Shown: positions 19,940-27,063, numbered from the stretch's first letter. The stretch: 64,000 bases of DNA from Mesoterricola silvestris (GCF_030295405.1 NZ_AP027080.1:4200001-4264000); one strand, 5' to 3'. Notes: a model not told the origin generated them from the letters alone. A program made the numbers and translations.

Positions 19940-20575
19940 ATGATCCCGCCCTGGTCCGCCGCCCCCCTCTTCCGAACCCTGCAACCCGCCCAGCGCGAAC
20001 GGGTAGGTCGCCTGGCCACCTCGCGGATCCTGGACCCCGAAGGCATGCTCTTCCTGGAGAACGAGCCCTGCACGGGGTTCTACGTCCTGGTGGAGGGCGC
20101 CATCCAGCTCACCCGCAGCGGGGACACCCCCGGCGCCCACCCCACCCTGGCCGTCATCACCCCGGTCAACAGCTTCGCCGAGGCCGCCATGTTCGGGGGC
20201 GAAGCCTTCCCCGCCACCGCCACGGCCGTGAAGCCGTCCCGGGTCTTCCACTTCCCCAAGGCCCCGTTCCTGGCCGCCATGCGGGAGGATCCGGACCTGG
20301 CCCTGGCCATCATCCACGCCCAGTCCGTGTGGCTCCGCAAGCTCACCCGCAAGGTGGAGCAGCTCACCGGTTCCGACAGTTCGGACCGCCTGCGTACCTG
20401 GATCCGGGAACATGTTCCCGCCGGCGGGTCCTTCGTGCTGCCCGTCACAAAAAAGACCCTGGCGGCTCAATTGGGCATGACCCCGGAAACCCTCTCCCGG
20501 AGCCTGAGAACGTTGCAGGACGAGGGTATTTTACAGGTGAGGGGCACCACCCTCAGCCGGAAACCCACCGCCTAA
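19940..20575 (+). CDS. Crp/Fnr family transcriptional regulator
   Basis: 211 residues. A cyclic-nucleotide-binding-like beta-roll (about 15-125: EGMLFLENEPCTGFYVLVEGAIQLTR...FAEAAMFGG) is joined by a dimer helix (AIIHAQSVWLRKLTRKVEQL) to a C-terminal winged HTH (TKKTLAAQLGMTPETLSRSLRTLQDEG). There is no N-terminal Cys cluster, so it is not an FNR-type Fe-S sensor; the heme/NO- or small-molecule-sensing DNR-like class is possible. An Rrf2 regulator follows 63 nt downstream. Confidence 0.88.
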   Translation: MIPPWSAAPLFRTLQPAQRERVGRLATSRILDPEGMLFLENEPCTGFYVLVEGAIQLTRSGDTPGAHPTLAVITPVNSFAEAAMFGGEAFPATATAVKPSRVFHFPKAPFLAAMREDPDLALAIIHAQSVWLRKLTRKVEQLTGSDSSDRLRTWIREHVPAGGSFVLPVTKKTLAAQLGMTPETLSRSLRTLQDEGILQVRGTTLSRKPTA

Positions 20576-20618: not shown

Positions 20619-20638
20619 TTATTAAACAGGGATACGCG

Positions 20639-21076
20639 ATGCTCTTCTCGACGGCAACCGGCTACGCACTCAGAGCTCTGGCAGCGATGCCGGAGGATGG
20701 CACCTACAGTCTGGCCAAGGATCTGGCCACGCTCCTGGATCTCCCCGGCCCCTACCTGGCCAAGATCCTCCAGTCCCTGGCCCAGGAGGGCATCCTGCAC
20801 TCCGTGCGGGGCCCCCGCGGGGGCTTCCGGCTGGCGCGCCCCGCCCACCACGTCACCGTGGGCGAAGTGGTGGAGGCCCTGGAAGGCATCGAGACCATGA
20901 GCGGCTGCGTCATGGGCTTCGCCCACTGCGACAACGAGGACAACCCCTGCCCCCTCCACAAGGCCTGGAACGAGGTCAAGGCCCACATGGACGCCTCCAT
21001 GACCCACGTGACCATCCGGGACCTGCAGATCCTGGACATGCAGCAGCACCGGGAACTGGCCGCCGGGAAGAAGTAG
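20639..21076 (+). CDS. Rrf2 family transcriptional regulator
   Basis: 145 residues. Typical Rrf2 winged helix (STATGYALRALAAMP, PGPYLAKILQSLAQEGILHSVRGPRGGFRLAR) with three cysteines C90, C97 and C104 (pattern C-x6-C-x6-C) in the loop that ligates a [2Fe-2S] or [4Fe-4S] cluster in IscR, NsrR and RsrR. It could sense redox state, NO or iron; no target gene is evident. Start chosen at the ATG preceded by AGGG, 7 nt away. A strong bidirectional terminator follows. Confidence 0.9.
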   Translation: MLFSTATGYALRALAAMPEDGTYSLAKDLATLLDLPGPYLAKILQSLAQEGILHSVRGPRGGFRLARPAHHVTVGEVVEALEGIETMSGCVMGFAHCDNEDNPCPLHKAWNEVKAHMDASMTHVTIRDLQILDMQQHRELAAGKK

Positions 21077-21129: not shown

Positions 21130-21495
21130 TCACTTGCCCTTGGGGGCGTTCTTCATCTGCTGCTTGACGAACACCTGGCGCCGGATGGACTGGTAGAGGC
21201 CCATGGAGATGGCGTTCTTCTCCACCAGGTGCGACTTGGTGACGTAGGGCCGGCCGGCGATGATCTTGGCGGCCAGCTCGGGGGTGATGCCCGGCAGGGT
21301 CTGGAGTTCCTTGGCGCTGGCGGCGTTGATGTCCACCTGCTTGCCCACGGGCTTGGCGAGTTTCTTCTTGGGGTGGGGCCGGGCCGCCCGGGGCTTGGCC
21401 GGGGGCGGAATCTCGTCCTCCTGGGCCCGCAGGAGCGAACCGGCCCCCAGGATGAGCAGGGCCGCGAGGGCGGTCTTCAGGGTGCTGCGAATCAT
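21130..21495 (-). CDS. exported helix-hairpin-helix (ComEA-like) protein
   Basis: 121 residues. A signal peptide (about 1-22, LLRA-QED) and a Pro/Lys-rich linker are followed by a helix-hairpin-helix domain (VDINAASAKELQTLPGITPELAAKIIAGRPYVTKSHLVEK) of the ComEA type. Such exported HhH proteins bind DNA in uptake systems or serve in other envelope complexes; no other competence gene is near. GGAGGT lies 5 nt before the chosen ATG. It sits downstream of the cytochrome cluster but a hairpin lies between. Confidence 0.85.
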   Translation of the reverse strand: MIRSTLKTALAALLILGAGSLLRAQEDEIPPPAKPRAARPHPKKKLAKPVGKQVDINAASAKELQTLPGITPELAAKIIAGRPYVTKSHLVEKNAISMGLYQSIRRQVFVKQQMKNAPKGK

Positions 21496-21570: not shown

Positions 21571-21596
21571 CCGGGGCAGGGCGGGCCCTGCCCCGG
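21571..21596 (-). terminator. hairpin after the decaheme cytochrome gene
   Basis: Perfect 12-bp inverted repeat CCGGGGCAGGGC (21571-21582) / GCCCTGCCCCGG (21585-21596), 9 nt beyond the decaheme stop on the minus strand. No T run follows. It probably closes the cytochrome operon. Confidence 0.6.
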
Positions 21597-21604
21597 CTTG
21601 GACG

Positions 21605-24403
21605 CTACTTGAAGTTCATGTGGACGACCCGGACGTCGGCGGTCTTGCCGGCGGCGTGGCAGAGCGTGCACTGTTCGAACTTGGCCAGCGCGGTGCTGCG
21701 GGGCTCGTAGACCGAACCACCATTGGCGATCATGTGGGCCGTGGCGGTGTTGCTGTCGTGGCAGGACCAGCAGGCGGCCGTCACGGGGGAGGTCACGAGG
21801 GTGGTGCCGGCGGCGGCGGTGGAGAAGGTGCCGGCGTCGACCTTGGCCGCGGTGAAGCTCGTGGAGAACCCGGAGCCGTAGACGGCGTTGGGGGCCACGA
21901 AGGGGGAGTAGTAGCTGCCGGGCAGGGTCTCGGCAACACCGTCGCCGACGAGGATGGCGGGGGTGCTGGCGGGCATGGTGCCCACGGCGGCGGTGGAGTA
22001 GAGCAGGTTGGGGATGGCGGCGGCGTTGTTCGTGCCACCGAAGTCATAGGAGCCGGGCACGTGGCAGGCTTCGCAGTTGTTCAGGATCGCGGGGTAGGTC
22101 ACGTTCCAGTAGTAGTCGCCGGCACCCACTTCCCAGCTGAACTTGTTGGTGCGCTTGTCGGCGGCGTGGATGGCGTGGACGGCGTCCTTGATGTTCACAG
22201 CCCAACCGTTGGTATTGGTCTTGTTGGGGTTGTGGCAGAAGGTGCAGGTGGGGGCGTCGTTGCGCTGACCGGCGTGGTAGACCTTCTCGGTGAAGATGCC
22301 GAGGGCGGCATGGCAGGCGTTGCACTTGGCGTTCGTGACGATCGCGCGGCGGGGCTTGACCATGTCGGAGGTGATGTTCGCGGTGGGGGTGACCGTGTTC
22401 ACGGCCATCTTCCAGGCGTTGGGGGCGGGAACGGAGAGGCCGCCCTGGCGGTTGCCGTCGGTGTTGTAGGCGTAGCCGGTGACGTTGGTCTGGGTCAGGG
22501 GCTGGGTGTTGGGCACACCGTAGGTGTAGCCGATGCCGCCGGTGATCATGGTGGCGGAGGCGGGGATCTTGACGCCCGTCATGGTCAGGGTGTAGTAGCC
22601 GCTGCCGTCGGGGCCCGTGAGGGTGCCCGCGCCGGTGCCGGTGGCGGTGCCGTTCCAGACGTTCTTCAGGTAGGTGTTGACCGTGGCGTTGTAGTCCGCG
22701 GGGGTGCTGATGCCGTCCTGGGGGATGGCGAAGGCCATGTAGATGCTGGGGCCGCCCACGAAGTTGGGGAGCATCTCGGTGACGGTGCCGGCGGCGTAGG
22801 TCTGGAAGACCTGGGGCTTGGGACCGTTGCCGTCACGCATGTCCAGCATGAAGCGGAAGACGAACTGGGGCTGCATGGAGGCGTTCAGGGTGACCGTCTT
22901 CAGGTCCCAGGTGGGGATGTAGGCGCCGGCGGGCAGGTTGTTGGTGTAGCCGGCGACGTACGAGGCGTTGGTGTTGTTGTTGCGGGCGGGCTGACCGGCA
23001 GGAGGCGCGGGCAGGAAGCCGTTGTTGGGGTTGGGGGCCACGACGGGGGTGTGGTTGATCTTGATGCCGCCGGGGGTGTGGCACTGGGTGCACTGGGAAT
23101 CGTCAGCCAGGGCGGCGTGGTTGATGCCGTTGGCGAAGTCGATCTGGTCATGGCAGGCGCCGCAGGCCAGACGGCTGGGCACGGTGTTCCAGTTGTCGCC
23201 CTGGGCCGCGCCGGTGGAGGCGCTGTGGCACTGCACGCAGTTCCGCTGGTCCATGGGGTAGGCGACTTCGTTGAACATGACGTTGGCGTAGTTGTAGTTC
23301 TCGTTGGTCAGCCCTTCGCCCATGTGGAGGGCGTGGATGAACGCGGGGAAGTTGGCGATGCTCAGGCCACGGACCTTCATGGTGCTGCCCGAGAACTTGA
23401 GGTGCTGGGGCGTGGTGGCGGTGGCGGGGACGACCGTGGAGGAGGCCTCCGCGTAGGTGTACTTGCGCTGATCGGTGTGGCAGATCACGCAGTAGTTGGG
23501 GTCGAAGCGGTTGCCGCCGTGCACCGTGAGGCGCGTGTGGCAGGCGTTGCAGGCGCCCAGGGAGGTCACCACGCGCTGCTGGTCGGTGGCCGCCACGGCC
23601 TTGCCGGTGGAGGGAACGAAATCGTACACCAGGTTCGCGGCCACCTGGATGGGCGCGGCGGGGACGCCGCTGTCGGCGCCGGTGGCGGTGTTGGTGCTGG
23701 TGCCGCGGGCGTTGCCGCCGATCTGGATGGCGACGCGGTGGGTGAGGGTGCCGTCGAAGGTCACGTCGCCCAGGTCCGCGCGCTTGTTGTTGCCGGTGTA
23801 GGTGTAGCCATCCAGGAAAGCCTGAACCTGGGTGATGTCCCGGTAGAAGGTGTAGACGTAGCTGCCGTCGCCGTTGTCCACGAGGGTGCCGGTGTTGTCC
23901 GTGCTGGGCTTGCCGGGCACGGCGGCCGTGGTGGTGGTGGGCATCGTGGTGACCACGTAGTTCACCCAGTAGCTGGGGGAACCGGCGGTGCCGGGCACCA
24001 GCTTGGCGATGGTGAAGCCGAAGTTGGGGTAGCTGGCGGCCAGGGCCGTGGACGACTTGGAGGTGAAGCCGAGGCCCACCACCGGCGTGCCGTTCTGGTC
24101 GGTCACCTTGAAGTTGATGACGGGCTTGCCGTTGGTGACGGCGGCGCCGGTGATGCTGCCCTGGAGGGTCAGATCACTCCATTCGGTGGGGGTCAGGTTG
24201 GCCGCGTTCACCTGGGGGCCGAGGCCGTTGGTGCCGTTGGTGCCATTGGTGCCGTTGGTCCCGTTGGTGCCGTTGGTGCCGTTGGTGCCGTTGGTGCCAT
24301 TGGCGCCGGCGGCTCCCGTCGCGCCGCGACAGCCGATGAGGGCGAGGGCGATGGCCGCGGTGGCGACCAGGGTGCCCAACCTCTTGAGAGGTTTCATTTC
24401 CAT
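21605..24403 (-). CDS. OmcA/MtrC family decaheme c-type cytochrome lipoprotein
   Basis: 932 residues. The lipoprotein signal LALIGC (Cys25) is followed by a Gly-Thr-Asn repeat (about 34-60). A beta-rich domain, a first five-heme cluster, a second beta-rich domain and a second five-heme cluster follow, the MtrC/OmcA/UndA layout. Ten CXXCH motifs are present: CNACH, CVICH, CVQCH, CGACH, CTQCH in the first half and CNACH, CTFCH, CEACH, CWSCH, CTLCH in the second. Such proteins sit on the outer face of the outer membrane and pass electrons to metal oxides, shuttles or electrodes. AGGAGG stands 7 nt before the ATG. It is the last gene of the porin-cytochrome cluster, with a 152-nt gap before it that may hold its own promoter. 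Confidence 0.93.
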   Translation of the reverse strand: MEMKPLKRLGTLVATAAIALALIGCRGATGAAGANGTNGTNGTNGTNGTNGTNGTNGTNGLGPQVNAANLTPTEWSDLTLQGSITGAAVTNGKPVINFKVTDQNGTPVVGLGFTSKSSTALAASYPNFGFTIAKLVPGTAGSPSYWVNYVVTTMPTTTTAAVPGKPSTDNTGTLVDNGDGSYVYTFYRDITQVQAFLDGYTYTGNNKRADLGDVTFDGTLTHRVAIQIGGNARGTSTNTATGADSGVPAAPIQVAANLVYDFVPSTGKAVAATDQQRVVTSLGACNACHTRLTVHGGNRFDPNYCVICHTDQRKYTYAEASSTVVPATATTPQHLKFSGSTMKVRGLSIANFPAFIHALHMGEGLTNENYNYANVMFNEVAYPMDQRNCVQCHSASTGAAQGDNWNTVPSRLACGACHDQIDFANGINHAALADDSQCTQCHTPGGIKINHTPVVAPNPNNGFLPAPPAGQPARNNNTNASYVAGYTNNLPAGAYIPTWDLKTVTLNASMQPQFVFRFMLDMRDGNGPKPQVFQTYAAGTVTEMLPNFVGGPSIYMAFAIPQDGISTPADYNATVNTYLKNVWNGTATGTGAGTLTGPDGSGYYTLTMTGVKIPASATMITGGIGYTYGVPNTQPLTQTNVTGYAYNTDGNRQGGLSVPAPNAWKMAVNTVTPTANITSDMVKPRRAIVTNAKCNACHAALGIFTEKVYHAGQRNDAPTCTFCHNPNKTNTNGWAVNIKDAVHAIHAADKRTNKFSWEVGAGDYYWNVTYPAILNNCEACHVPGSYDFGGTNNAAAIPNLLYSTAAVGTMPASTPAILVGDGVAETLPGSYYSPFVAPNAVYGSGFSTSFTAAKVDAGTFSTAAAGTTLVTSPVTAACWSCHDSNTATAHMIANGGSVYEPRSTALAKFEQCTLCHAAGKTADVRVVHMNFK
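24224..24304 (-). repeat. nine tandem 9-bp repeats encoding Gly-Thr-Asn tether
   Basis: Nine consecutive 9-bp units, consensus GCCGTTGGT on the plus strand with single-base variants (GCCATTGGT, CCCGTTGGT), encode an (N-G-T)n run right after the lipid-anchored cysteine region of the decaheme cytochrome. Near-identical DNA units indicate recent expansion and likely length variation between strains. Confidence 0.92.
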
Positions 24404-24555
24404 GCTACTTCCTCCTTTTATTAGCATTGGCGTTGAGTGAAAGGACCTGCATTGGGTACGGATGGGGTTGTCCTTCAAGGATTTTCAAGTCGTGCACCTC
24501 CCGTGGTGGTCTGACAGATCGGTTGGTTCAAAACGGCGCGGTGTCCGTCTGGAAG

Positions 24556-25203
24556 TTAGAACTTCGTGGTGTGGCAGAGCGTTCCGTTGAAGCAGCCGGG
24601 TGTCGTCCCCGCGGGGGCGGGGGGCTGGGGGGTGATGTCCGAATTCGCGCCGAGGGCATGGCACTTCACGCATTCGGAGGCATTGGCGTAATCGGTCTTG
24701 TCATGGTTGGGGTTGAGGGGGGAGAGCCCGCTCTGCCAGGGCTTGGAGGGATGCGGAGCCTTGGTGTGGCAGGAGGTGCAGGAGGGGGTGATGCCCACGG
24801 GGCTGGTGTAGTCCGACCCGTGGCAGGGGGTGCAGGAGGCGAAGCCCTTGCCCTGGAAGTAGGTGGCGCCGTTGGGGGCGCCCTGGGCGCCCAGGCGTCC
24901 GTGCTGCGCGGGATCCGCCCAGCCGGCGGGGTGGTGGGGACCGTTGGGGTGGTGGCATCCGAAGCAGCTGACGCCGGAGGTGCCGCCGGCCGCCGCCGTG
25001 TCGGTGGTGGAGCCGTGGCAGGGCTTGCAGCCGTCGGGGTTCTTGAGGTACTCGGCCCAGTGGGTGGTCTGCCAGTTGGCGGGATGGGCGCCGGTGGTGG
25101 GGTTCAGCGTCGCCGCCTTGTCCGCGGCCGTGCTGGAGCAGCCCACGATGGCCAGTGCCGCCAGTGCCGCGAAGAAGGTCCCTGCAATCAATCGTTTGTT
25201 CAT
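24556..25203 (-). CDS. multiheme c-type cytochrome lipoprotein (5 CXXCH + 1 CX5CH)
   Basis: 215 residues. The lipobox AIVGC ends at Cys22. Five canonical heme motifs: CKPCH, CFGCH, CTPCH, CTSCH, CVKCH. The C-terminus ends with C-F-N-G-T-L-C-H, a CX5CH arrangement that may be a sixth, non-canonical heme site or a degenerate motif. Probably anchored at the outer membrane on the periplasmic side, linking periplasmic carriers to the porin-decaheme pair (inference from gene order). The start at 25203 is supported by AGGGG and by the lipoprotein signal beginning there. It follows the pentaheme gene by 10 nt. Confidence 0.88.
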   Translation of the reverse strand: MNKRLIAGTFFAALAALAIVGCSSTAADKAATLNPTTGAHPANWQTTHWAEYLKNPDGCKPCHGSTTDTAAAGGTSGVSCFGCHHPNGPHHPAGWADPAQHGRLGAQGAPNGATYFQGKGFASCTPCHGSDYTSPVGITPSCTSCHTKAPHPSKPWQSGLSPLNPNHDKTDYANASECVKCHALGANSDITPQPPAPAGTTPGCFNGTLCHTTKF

Positions 25204-25213
25204 GATCAGACCC

Positions 25214-25681
25214 CTACTTGTGGCAAGCGGTGCACTTTTCGTTGTTGGCGCGGCCATGGCACTTGAAGCAGCCCGTGGGATCCACCTTCCCGTCGATGCG
25301 GTGCAGGGTCAGGTAGCCCGTGCGGTGCGGCGAGATGCGGTCGGGCCGGTTGCCCAGCTTGGCGGAGGGCAGCATGGCGGTCTTGCCACCGTGGCAGTCG
25401 GAGCAGAAGGACTGGGCGTGGCAGGAGGCGCAGGTGGCGCCGTCCTGGGTGGCCTGGACCTTGTGGTCCTTCACGAAGGTGGTGGTGTGGTCCAGGGAGG
25501 CGAAGGTCTTCTGGGTGCTCTTCACCCGCTCGGTGCCGTGGCACTCGGAGCAGGTGGGGCGCCCGGTGCTCAGCTCCTGGGGGTGGGTGCGCGCGAAGCT
25601 GGCTTCGGGCGAGACCAGGGCGCAGGCGGTGAGGAGCCCGAGGCCCAGGCCCGCCGCGATGAGGGCGAATTTCTTGAACAT
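25214..25681 (-). CDS. pentaheme c-type cytochrome lipoprotein
   Basis: 155 residues. Lipobox LLTAC at about residue 20. Five CXXCH motifs (CSECH, CASCH, CSDCH, CFKCH, CTACH) with interspersed His residues that can give bis-His ligation, in a cytochrome c3/c7-like spacing. It is predicted to be the periplasmic electron entry part of the porin conduit. The ATG at 25681 overlaps the porin stop (TGATG), and GGAGG lies 6 nt upstream inside the porin gene, so the two are translationally coupled. Confidence 0.9.
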   Translation of the reverse strand: MFKKFALIAAGLGLGLLTACALVSPEASFARTHPQELSTGRPTCSECHGTERVKSTQKTFASLDHTTTFVKDHKVQATQDGATCASCHAQSFCSDCHGGKTAMLPSAKLGNRPDRISPHRTGYLTLHRIDGKVDPTGCFKCHGRANNEKCTACHK

Positions 25682-27063
25682 CACTTGCCTCCTTTACCCG
25701 CGAAGCCGAAGCGGAAATCGGCCCGGAGGAGCCCCATCACCTGCTTCTTGTAGAGGGGGGTGTCCGCGAAGCTCAGGTCGCCGGAGAGCTTGAAGTTCTT
25801 GGCGATCTGGTAGCCGGCGGAGCCCACGATCTCGGATTCGATGGCCTTGTGGTTGAGGTTGGGGTCGCCGTAGGCGCCGCCGTAGTGGAGGCGGATGGCG
25901 TCGAGGCTGGCGGAGAAGTTGCCCTTCTCGTACATCGCCCACCCGCGGATCTCGCTGTGGGAGACGCTGTAGGCGGGCGTCAGGGAATCCACGAGCTGGA
26001 CCTTGAAGGCGTTGACCTTGTGGTAGCCGCCCCCCAGCACCAGGTGCTGGGCCGCGAAGGTGAGGCGCCCGTCCAGGCCGGCCCGGGTGGTGTTGCCGTA
26101 GGTTTCGCGCTTGGTGGTGCGCACATCGGCCACCAGGTTCAGGATCGAAAGGGGGCTCCAGGAAACGGAGAGCCCGTTGGAGCTGAACTTGCCCTTCTCG
26201 TTCTGGTTGAAGAGGCTGGGCAGGGTCGTGCCGGCGTAGTAGGCGTAGAAGTTGCGCTGGAGGTAGGTGCCCGTGACGGACAGGTTGTCCAGGATCTTCC
26301 CGGTGGCCTTGTAGTCGTGCTCGGCGATATTGGAACGGTCCTGGCCGGGCAGCGCGTCGGGGTGCTTGGCCACATCGAACACCGTGCGGCCGCTGAAATC
26401 CAGGAAGGCCGCGGGCGCCAGGGTGATGTCGGCGCCCACCTGGCGGCGGGTGTAGTCCACGGGCTCGGGGATGGGCAGGTCCTTGGCGGCGGTGGTGCCG
26501 TCCTGCAGGTAGGAGACGCCGATCTCGCCCAGCTTGGCCATGCGCCAGCCCAGGCGGGTGCCCACGATGAAGTCCCGCTGGTAGGCGGGCTGCAACTGGG
26601 GCAGGCTGCTGAGGTTCTTGAAGATGACGGGCTGGCCGCCGAATGCGGAAATCGTGAATCCGCCCCGGAGATCCGTGCGCATGGATACGCCGTCCACCAT
26701 CTCGTTGCCGATGCCCTGGTTCACCACGATCCGGCCCGCCTTGATCTCGGCGTTGGCGCGGTCGAAGCTGTACTGCAGGTAGCCGTAGGTGAGGTCGCCG
26801 GAGTTCTTGCCGCCGATGGAGGACTGATCCTTCAGGTCGGTGCGGCCCCAGCCGTAGAGGTGCAGGGACAGGGCGTCCGTGCCCAGCTTGGTGGCGTCGA
26901 TACCCAGGAACTCGGTGACCGGCAGGAGGGTCGCCTTGTCGAAGTTGGGGGTGTCCTGCTTCCAGCTCTGGGCCAGGGTGGTGCTGTAGACGTTGATGTC
27001 CTGGGCGAAGGCCGTGGCGGAAACCAGGGCGGCGAGCAGGGCCACGGGGGTGTGCTGTCTCAT
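25681..27063 (-). CDS. outer-membrane beta-barrel protein of porin-cytochrome conduit
   Basis: 460 residues. A signal peptide ends SATAFA-Q (about 19). The mature part is made of repeated amphipathic strands with aromatic belts (for example LHLYGWGR, TYGYLQYSFDR, LVLGGGYHKV, IRGWAMYEKGNFSASLDAIRLHYGG), consistent with a barrel of roughly 18-22 strands. There is no TonB plug. Its position first in an operon with two small and one decaheme lipoprotein cytochromes indicates the barrel of an MtrB/OmbB-like conduit; no MtrB-specific motif is claimed. GGAGGT precedes the ATG by 5 nt, and a short upstream ORF overlaps this start. Confidence 0.82.
   Translation of the reverse strand: MRQHTPVALLAALVSATAFAQDINVYSTTLAQSWKQDTPNFDKATLLPVTEFLGIDATKLGTDALSLHLYGWGRTDLKDQSSIGGKNSGDLTYGYLQYSFDRANAEIKAGRIVVNQGIGNEMVDGVSMRTDLRGGFTISAFGGQPVIFKNLSSLPQLQPAYQRDFIVGTRLGWRMAKLGEIGVSYLQDGTTAAKDLPIPEPVDYTRRQVGADITLAPAAFLDFSGRTVFDVAKHPDALPGQDRSNIAEHDYKATGKILDNLSVTGTYLQRNFYAYYAGTTLPSLFNQNEKGKFSSNGLSVSWSPLSILNLVADVRTTKRETYGNTTRAGLDGRLTFAAQHLVLGGGYHKVNAFKVQLVDSLTPAYSVSHSEIRGWAMYEKGNFSASLDAIRLHYGGAYGDPNLNHKAIESEIVGSAGYQIAKNFKLSGDLSFADTPLYKKQVMGLLRADFRFGFAGKGGK

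Follow-up and report, generated by a model that had tools for sequence, protein, structure and literature searches.

A four-gene porin-cytochrome locus of Mesoterricola silvestris as a probable electron conduit of the Pcc/Ext kind

In a window of 64,000 nucleotides from Mesoterricola silvestris (GCF_030295405.1, NZ_AP027080.1:4200001-4264000; the host genome is one contig of 4.99 Mb), the minus strand between positions 21605 and 27063 carries four tightly packed genes, encoding in this order an outer-membrane porin and a pentahaem, a hexahaem and a decahaem cytochrome. Judged by its sequences and their conservation, this set almost certainly functions as an electron conduit across the outer membrane. 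It is probably a porin-cytochrome conduit of the Pcc/Ext kind, with the pentahaem as the cork of the barrel and the hexahaem and decahaem on the outside. The four genes are the following.

25681..27063, minus strand: outer-membrane beta-barrel 'porin', 460 amino acids, signal peptide, no haem motif (open reading frame, AlphaFold2 model, relation to OmbB-type porins by hidden Markov model, HMM)
25214..25681, minus strand: pentahaem c-type cytochrome lipoprotein, 155 amino acids from ATG, five CXXCH, lipobox LTAC (open reading frame, motifs)
24556..25203, minus strand: hexahaem c-type cytochrome lipoprotein, 215 amino acids, five CXXCH and one CX5CH, lipobox IVGC (open reading frame, motifs)
21605..24403, minus strand: OmcA/MtrC-family decahaem c-type cytochrome lipoprotein, 932 amino acids, ten CXXCH, lipobox LIGC (open reading frame, TIGR03507, PF22113, PDB)

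Open reading frames, motif counts and lipoboxes agree with a first-pass annotation of the window, which had described this gene order on one strand with three lipoprotein cytochromes. The porin and pentahaem frames share a single nucleotide (TGATG), and an alternative in-frame GTG start for the pentahaem lies at 25684. The pentahaem and hexahaem are 10 nucleotides apart, and 152 nucleotides separate the hexahaem stop from the decahaem, which is preceded by a strong Shine-Dalgarno sequence. A terminator scan of the minus strand lists no site between the four genes. Neither the hexahaem nor the decahaem has Asp at position +2 after the lipobox, as expected of putative outer-membrane lipoproteins. 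Two signals flank the decahaem.

24411..24420, minus strand: Shine-Dalgarno-like taaaaggagg upstream of the decahaem ATG (sequence)
21571..21596, minus strand: 10-bp GC-rich hairpin (CCGGGGCAGG/CCTGCCCCGG) 3' of the decahaem stop (sequence), a possible transcript end, which has no T run and is absent from the terminator scan list

The presence of the four genes in this span and order is far beyond chance, because the order recurs in about 30 Holophagaceae genomes and because a porin adjoins the pentahaem wherever the latter was found. A scan of bacterial genomes with a pentahaem alignment gave 80 loci, among them those of Geobacter argillaceus (59%), Geobacter sp. OR-1, Geomonas and Oryzomonas, and a homologous porin lies directly upstream in 80 of 80, in Holophagaceae and Geobacterales alike (in locus L127 only across a scaffold gap), with open reading frames that overlap by 1-4 nucleotides in most of them. 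A plasmid search with the pentahaem gave no match. Among 396 sampled Acidobacteriota genomes the porin occurs in 33, all of one family, the Holophagaceae, of which 33 of 39 members carry it; the hexahaem family is found in 64 of 77 Holophagaceae genomes, multi-domain relatives counted. The closest named relatives by porin are the Holophagaceae metagenome-assembled genomes (MAGs) UBA692 (~90%) and UBA706 (~62%), and among the named carriers are Geothrix fermentans (L103), G. terrae, G. campi, G. paludis, G. fuzhouensis, G. oryzisoli and G. limicola; tandem arrays of two or three decahaems occur in several Geothrix. An apparent porin-pentahaem fusion at 6088-6089 of L127 is an artefact of an nn scaffold join.

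The linkage bears on an alternative that the first-pass annotation had already named, in which the barrel would be an ordinary substrate porin and the cytochrome genes mere neighbours. Such a porin is what the Foldseek matches would suggest, as those ranking highest for the porin model are generic substrate porins and exporters (e.g. AlgE and chitoporin), and no library family names the protein (no Pfam family, and no NCBIfam family above marginal level). However, the invariable linkage over two phyla, the overlapping frames and the relation to OmbB-type porins described below largely refute this explanation on sequence grounds, and I consider it very improbable.

The porin has no match to the MtrB/PioB family (TIGR03509) at an expectation value (E) of 1 or below, and none in a PDB sequence search, but a broad HMM built from it matches OmbB-like porins over the N-terminal half (E 1.3e-8 to 4.9e-16). 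A broad HMM of the pentahaem likewise matches an octahaem OmaB-like protein (E 2.6e-16 to 5.3e-21). In the genomes G457-G459 (assumed Geobacter) these two proteins are the sole relatives well above background, with an OmcB-like lipoprotein behind the pair and, in some of the genomes, a TetR-type regulator in front of it; the Omb, Oma and Omc names in these genomes rest on context (haem counts, sizes, the TetR neighbour) and on published descriptions, not on a sequence match.

The AlphaFold2 model of the porin, built with 57 homologues, has a mean predicted local distance difference test (pLDDT) score of 83 and a predicted template modelling (pTM) score of 0.76. It shows 22 long strands, which start directly after the signal peptide, and the predicted barrel therefore has no plug domain. 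The strand count falls inside the range of 18-22 given for Pcc barrels in PMC4245776. With VIA-align the model groups with the 22-strand barrels of the TonB-dependent transporters PirA, Cir, Fiu, BtuB and FhuA (Z 16-19), in alignments of ~350-370 residues that start only past the plug domains of these transporters. The plug inside barrels of that kind normally has about 150 residues. Since the modelled barrel is plugless and of TonB-receptor size, and the mature pentahaem has 135 residues, the pentahaem would fit as a redox-active cork of the barrel.

Among 61 pentahaems of both phyla exactly five histidines outside the motifs are invariant (H34, H66, H74, H120 and H128), a number matching five bis-histidine haems. 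Five haems also fall within the 5-14 expected of a Pcc small cytochrome. Searches of Pfam and NCBIfam with the pentahaem and hexahaem returned only sub-threshold matches to generic multihaem families, neither matches the MtrA/DmsE family (TIGR03508), and in the PDB sequence search the pentahaem had no match and the hexahaem only weak class-I cytochrome matches. With a porin adjacent to a multihaem gene, strand and haem numbers in the described ranges, homology to OmbB and OmaB, and a lipoprotein cytochrome, the locus has the features of the Pcc superfamily.

Several points weigh against a Pcc/Ext-kind conduit corked by the pentahaem. The conduit is known here from genes and single-protein predictions. 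The pentahaem model is poor (pLDDT 66, pTM 0.49) and finds no fold match, so that it lends no structural support to the cork position, and the pentahaem is lipidated, unlike the soluble OmaB. Neither MtrB nor another conduit porin stood out in the Foldseek search, MtrB not being among the 50 matches listed, an absence which is no evidence of a different fold.

The second small lipoprotein carries, besides its five regular motifs, a non-canonical one close to its C-terminus.

24571..24594, minus strand: non-canonical haem motif CFNGTLCH (CX5CH), hexahaem residues 204-211 (alignment)

The motif at this site is invariant across 20 Holophagaceae hexahaems, and of 71 hexahaem-type domains every one except a single domain keeps its two cysteines and histidine at the aligned positions. 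Six histidines outside the motifs are conserved (H40, H48, H91, H101, H151 and H167); in the 71 domains five of them reach 95-100%, and H91 is found in 98% of the Holophagaceae and 62% of the other set. Because six near-invariant distal histidines match six motifs, there is good, if indirect, support for a sixth haem at CX5CH, and of the five to six haems left open in the first-pass annotation the higher number is favoured. A literature search on CX5CH in haem-binding cytochromes found nothing, and haem binding by CX>4CH was left open in PMC4245776.

The gene in third position is the variable part of these loci. Next to a constant porin-pentahaem pair it encodes a single hexahaem (5+1 motifs), a duplicated hexahaem (10+2), a 25-CXXCH protein or, in Geobacterales, a larger multi-domain lipoprotein, and the hexahaem-type domain recurs in relatives as the N-terminal module of lipoproteins with 8 to 25 CXXCH. 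The duplicated form (L116-L118) is not followed by a decahaem, although two of these loci have one upstream. The 25-CXXCH lipoproteins (~1120-1165 amino acids) start with a hexahaem-type domain, carry several CX3-5CH as well, and have no separate hexahaem or decahaem adjoining.

L132 1099 onward, L140 9530 onward, L141 9531 onward, L142 2038 onward; also L042 and L046: 25-CXXCH lipoproteins

Because the third gene varies and its hexahaem-type domain heads much larger lipoproteins while the porin-pentahaem pair stays constant, the hexahaem would sit on the outer side, as a variable surface component. Conservation of porin and inner cytochrome with exchange of the outer-surface cytochromes is a pattern described before (Shi 2014, PMC4245776; Jimenez Otero 2018, PMC6148476). 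The first-pass annotation had instead split the periplasmic subunit over both small lipoproteins, which would then be stacked in series at the inner leaflet or in the periplasm as a replacement of MtrA or OmaB, with only the decahaem outside. Both are indeed encoded between barrel and decahaem, and their 11 haems come near the 10 of MtrA; however, the pentahaem alone corresponds to OmaB, the variable hexahaem-type domain heads lipoproteins of 8-25 CXXCH that are too large for a barrel insert, and no separate decahaem adjoins the 25-CXXCH form, all of which makes the split arrangement unlikely. The host genome encodes a second hexahaem-domain lipoprotein elsewhere (L061 4936-7587, C1 ~520.9-523.6 kb), of 883 amino acids with 19 CXXCH and atypical motifs.

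The decahaem belongs to the OmcA/MtrC family, as the first-pass annotation had it: it scores 462.6 bits against TIGR03507 (E 2.3e-138), above the curated cut-off of 209.3, matches PF22113 (E 9.6e-49) and, in the PDB sequence search, the solved structures of MtrF, MtrC and OmcA, and it has ten haem motifs and a lipid anchor. No second gene of this family was found in the host genome. Just past the lipid-anchor cysteine it contains a repetitive stretch.

24224..24331, minus strand: Gly-X-Y (GTN)n collagen-like low-complexity spacer (Pfam Collagen, sequence)

The Pfam Collagen match to residues 25-60 (24.3 bits) is under the family cut-off; in relatives the spacer is (GTN)n or (GAT)n and varies in length. 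The decahaem is likely the outermost subunit, facing a mineral or shuttle.

From these properties I infer where each subunit sits, which way electrons flow and what the natural acceptor is. The pentahaem lipoprotein in the 22-strand outer-membrane barrel would receive electrons that come from the quinone pool by way of periplasmic cytochromes and pass them to the hexahaem lipoprotein on the outer side; from there they would reach the decahaem held on its Gly-rich spacer, which would deliver them to extracellular acceptors such as Fe(III) or Mn(IV) oxides, humics, electrodes or partner cells. More tentatively, and with the odds somewhat against it, a bolder version can be put forward: a haem-packed lipoprotein of 135 residues, with about half the haems of MtrA, would cork a 22-strand barrel of TonB-receptor size and so form a minimal wire through the membrane, the CX5CH of the hexahaem would be a bona fide haem site, and the hexahaem module would head covalent surface wires of at least 20 haems in relatives.

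The flow could also be reversed, the same conduit taking up electrons from extracellular Fe(II), a cathode or a partner cell, as conduits are reversible in principle and electron exchange of Holophaga/Geothrix with cable bacteria has been suggested (PMC11748539). However, the carrier Geothrix fermentans is a known Fe(III) reducer, and the host genome encodes two NapC/NirT-family proteins, one of which is laid out like ImcH (483 amino acids, five CXXCH and, close to the start of the protein, a CX3CH). PMC6295460 discusses the ImcH homologues of Geothrix, and the family has been proposed as quinol oxidases for outward flow. Neither observation is decisive, but uptake as the role of the conduit seems improbable to me.

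Set beside known systems, the locus is closest to a group of pentahaem-type Pcc clusters in Geobacterales (L126, L133, L136, L144-L171). These share the gene order and the overlap, and their pentahaems have 155-158 amino acids; identities are 32-41% for the porin over nearly its full length and 45-59% for the pentahaem. Their third gene, where present, usually starts with a hexahaem-type domain, most often with CX5CH. In contrast to M. silvestris it encodes one larger lipoprotein (mostly 8-24 CXXCH), usually without an adjacent OmcA/MtrC decahaem. Clusters of the Geomonas/Citrifermentans type (L175 and L176) do combine a porin, a pentahaem, a small lipoprotein with 3 CXXCH and atypical CX4-5CH motifs, and a nearby OmcA/MtrC-family decahaem, which is 33% (L175, E=2.8e-125) and 39% (L176, E=1.3e-177) identical to that of the window, but their porin is more distant (~25% identity, E ~1e-36), their pentahaem has ~144 amino acids (42-44%), and their gene order is less uniform. 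They are plausibly of the type of GM18_3461-3463 of Geobacter sp. M18 in PMC4245776, to which they are likened by description only.

The classical OmbB-OmaB-OmcB conduit has the same plan of a barrel, a barrel-associated cytochrome and a surface lipoprotein cytochrome, and its first two members are detectable homologues by HMM; however, OmaB has 8 haems and no lipobox, and OmcB, with 12 haems, is not related to the decahaem. ExtBCD/ExtEFG of G. sulfurreducens (PMC6148476), compared by published description only, also combine a porin (ExtB/ExtE, GSU2644/GSU2726), a 5-haem lipoprotein (ExtC/ExtF, GSU2643/GSU2725) and a further multihaem cytochrome, but this third component has 12 haems. With Shewanella MtrCAB the locus shares an OmcA/MtrC-family decahaem as the outermost subunit, whereas MtrCAB has an MtrB/PioB-family porin and the soluble decahaem MtrA where M. 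silvestris has lipoproteins of 5 and 6 haems. The solved MtrB barrel has 26 strands, against the 22 of the present model. In PMC4245776, MtrB was predicted with 28. A search of the host genome for an MtrB-type (TIGR03509) conduit found none, and the control of that search likewise gave no match. The likeness to MtrCAB and Pcc operons on which the first-pass annotation had based a conduit for extracellular electron transfer is borne out.

Such a conduit is also less novel and less acidobacterial than had been supposed. Arbour 2020 (PMC7399161) described in a Holophaga genome an MtrB-like conduit together with one of the ExtB/E family, counted as the first likely conduit of the Acidobacteria, extEFG homologues expressed in a Holophaga MAG were reported in PMC11748539 (2024), and Shi 2014 (PMC4245776) proposed a 5-haem plus 6-haem conduit in Geobacter sp. 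M18; the window genes are likened to these clusters by description, not by sequence. In a tree of 84 porins, obtained by a quick search and with long branches flagged, all Holophagaceae porins (plus that of L110) form one clade, with a support of 100 in the Shimodaira-Hasegawa-like approximate likelihood-ratio test (SH-aLRT), nested among Geobacterales and adjoining G. argillaceus L126 (support 95). As the Holophagaceae porins form a single nested clade, the conduit was probably transferred once into this family. With the same-order homologues in Geobacterales and the four-part sets of L175 and L176, this argues that the porin-pentahaem pair is not acidobacterial in origin and the four-part set not confined to Acidobacteriota, so that the label of a distinct acidobacterial type has to be dropped. 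Holophagaceae-type clusters are also borne by L110, a MAG labelled Deltaproteobacteria, and by L122, labelled Bacillota; since the clusters are of this type, both labels are probably wrong.

What sets the locus apart is the lipidation of its 5- and 6-haem subunits, the conserved CX5CH, and an OmcA/MtrC decahaem in the outermost position. For the Fe(III)-reducing Holophagaceae (Geothrix and relatives) it offers a near-universal, specific candidate for the exit of electrons through the outer membrane, and it links this conduit to those of the Geobacterales. A 5-haem protein with a 22-strand barrel would make a compact test object, five haems being the lower end of the range reported for such conduits (5-14 in PMC4245776), and two questions become testable: haem binding by CX5CH and the location of the small lipoproteins.

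Distant pentahaems in two other Acidobacteriota genomes (L090 7393-7869 and L091 7515-7967) were considered and rejected, as they have no adjoining porin and lie in an apparent Rnf-type cluster, beside an apparent RnfC-type gene; they may belong to a cytochrome-linked Rnf complex. In Geobacterales, pentahaem clusters are followed by a protein of 923-935 amino acids without haem motifs and then by cytochromes with 25-30 or more CXXCH.

L136 14406 onward, L144 14208 onward, L149 14073 onward: haem-motif-free protein of 923-935 amino acids and downstream cytochromes

In the window, the decahaem is followed by a gene for a secreted ComEA/PsbU-like helix-hairpin-helix protein (21130-21495, minus strand), and most Holophagaceae loci that have room for such a gene carry it in the corresponding position; the association of a DNA-binding-type fold with surface cytochromes is a puzzling one. 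Convergent to the 3' end of the cluster lie two regulators, one of the CRP/FNR type (19940-20575, plus strand) and one of the Rrf2 type (20633-21076, plus strand). Both are kept in G097 (L040), and Rrf2-family genes occur near the cluster in several Geothrix-type loci; redox regulation of the cluster by these neighbours is possible.

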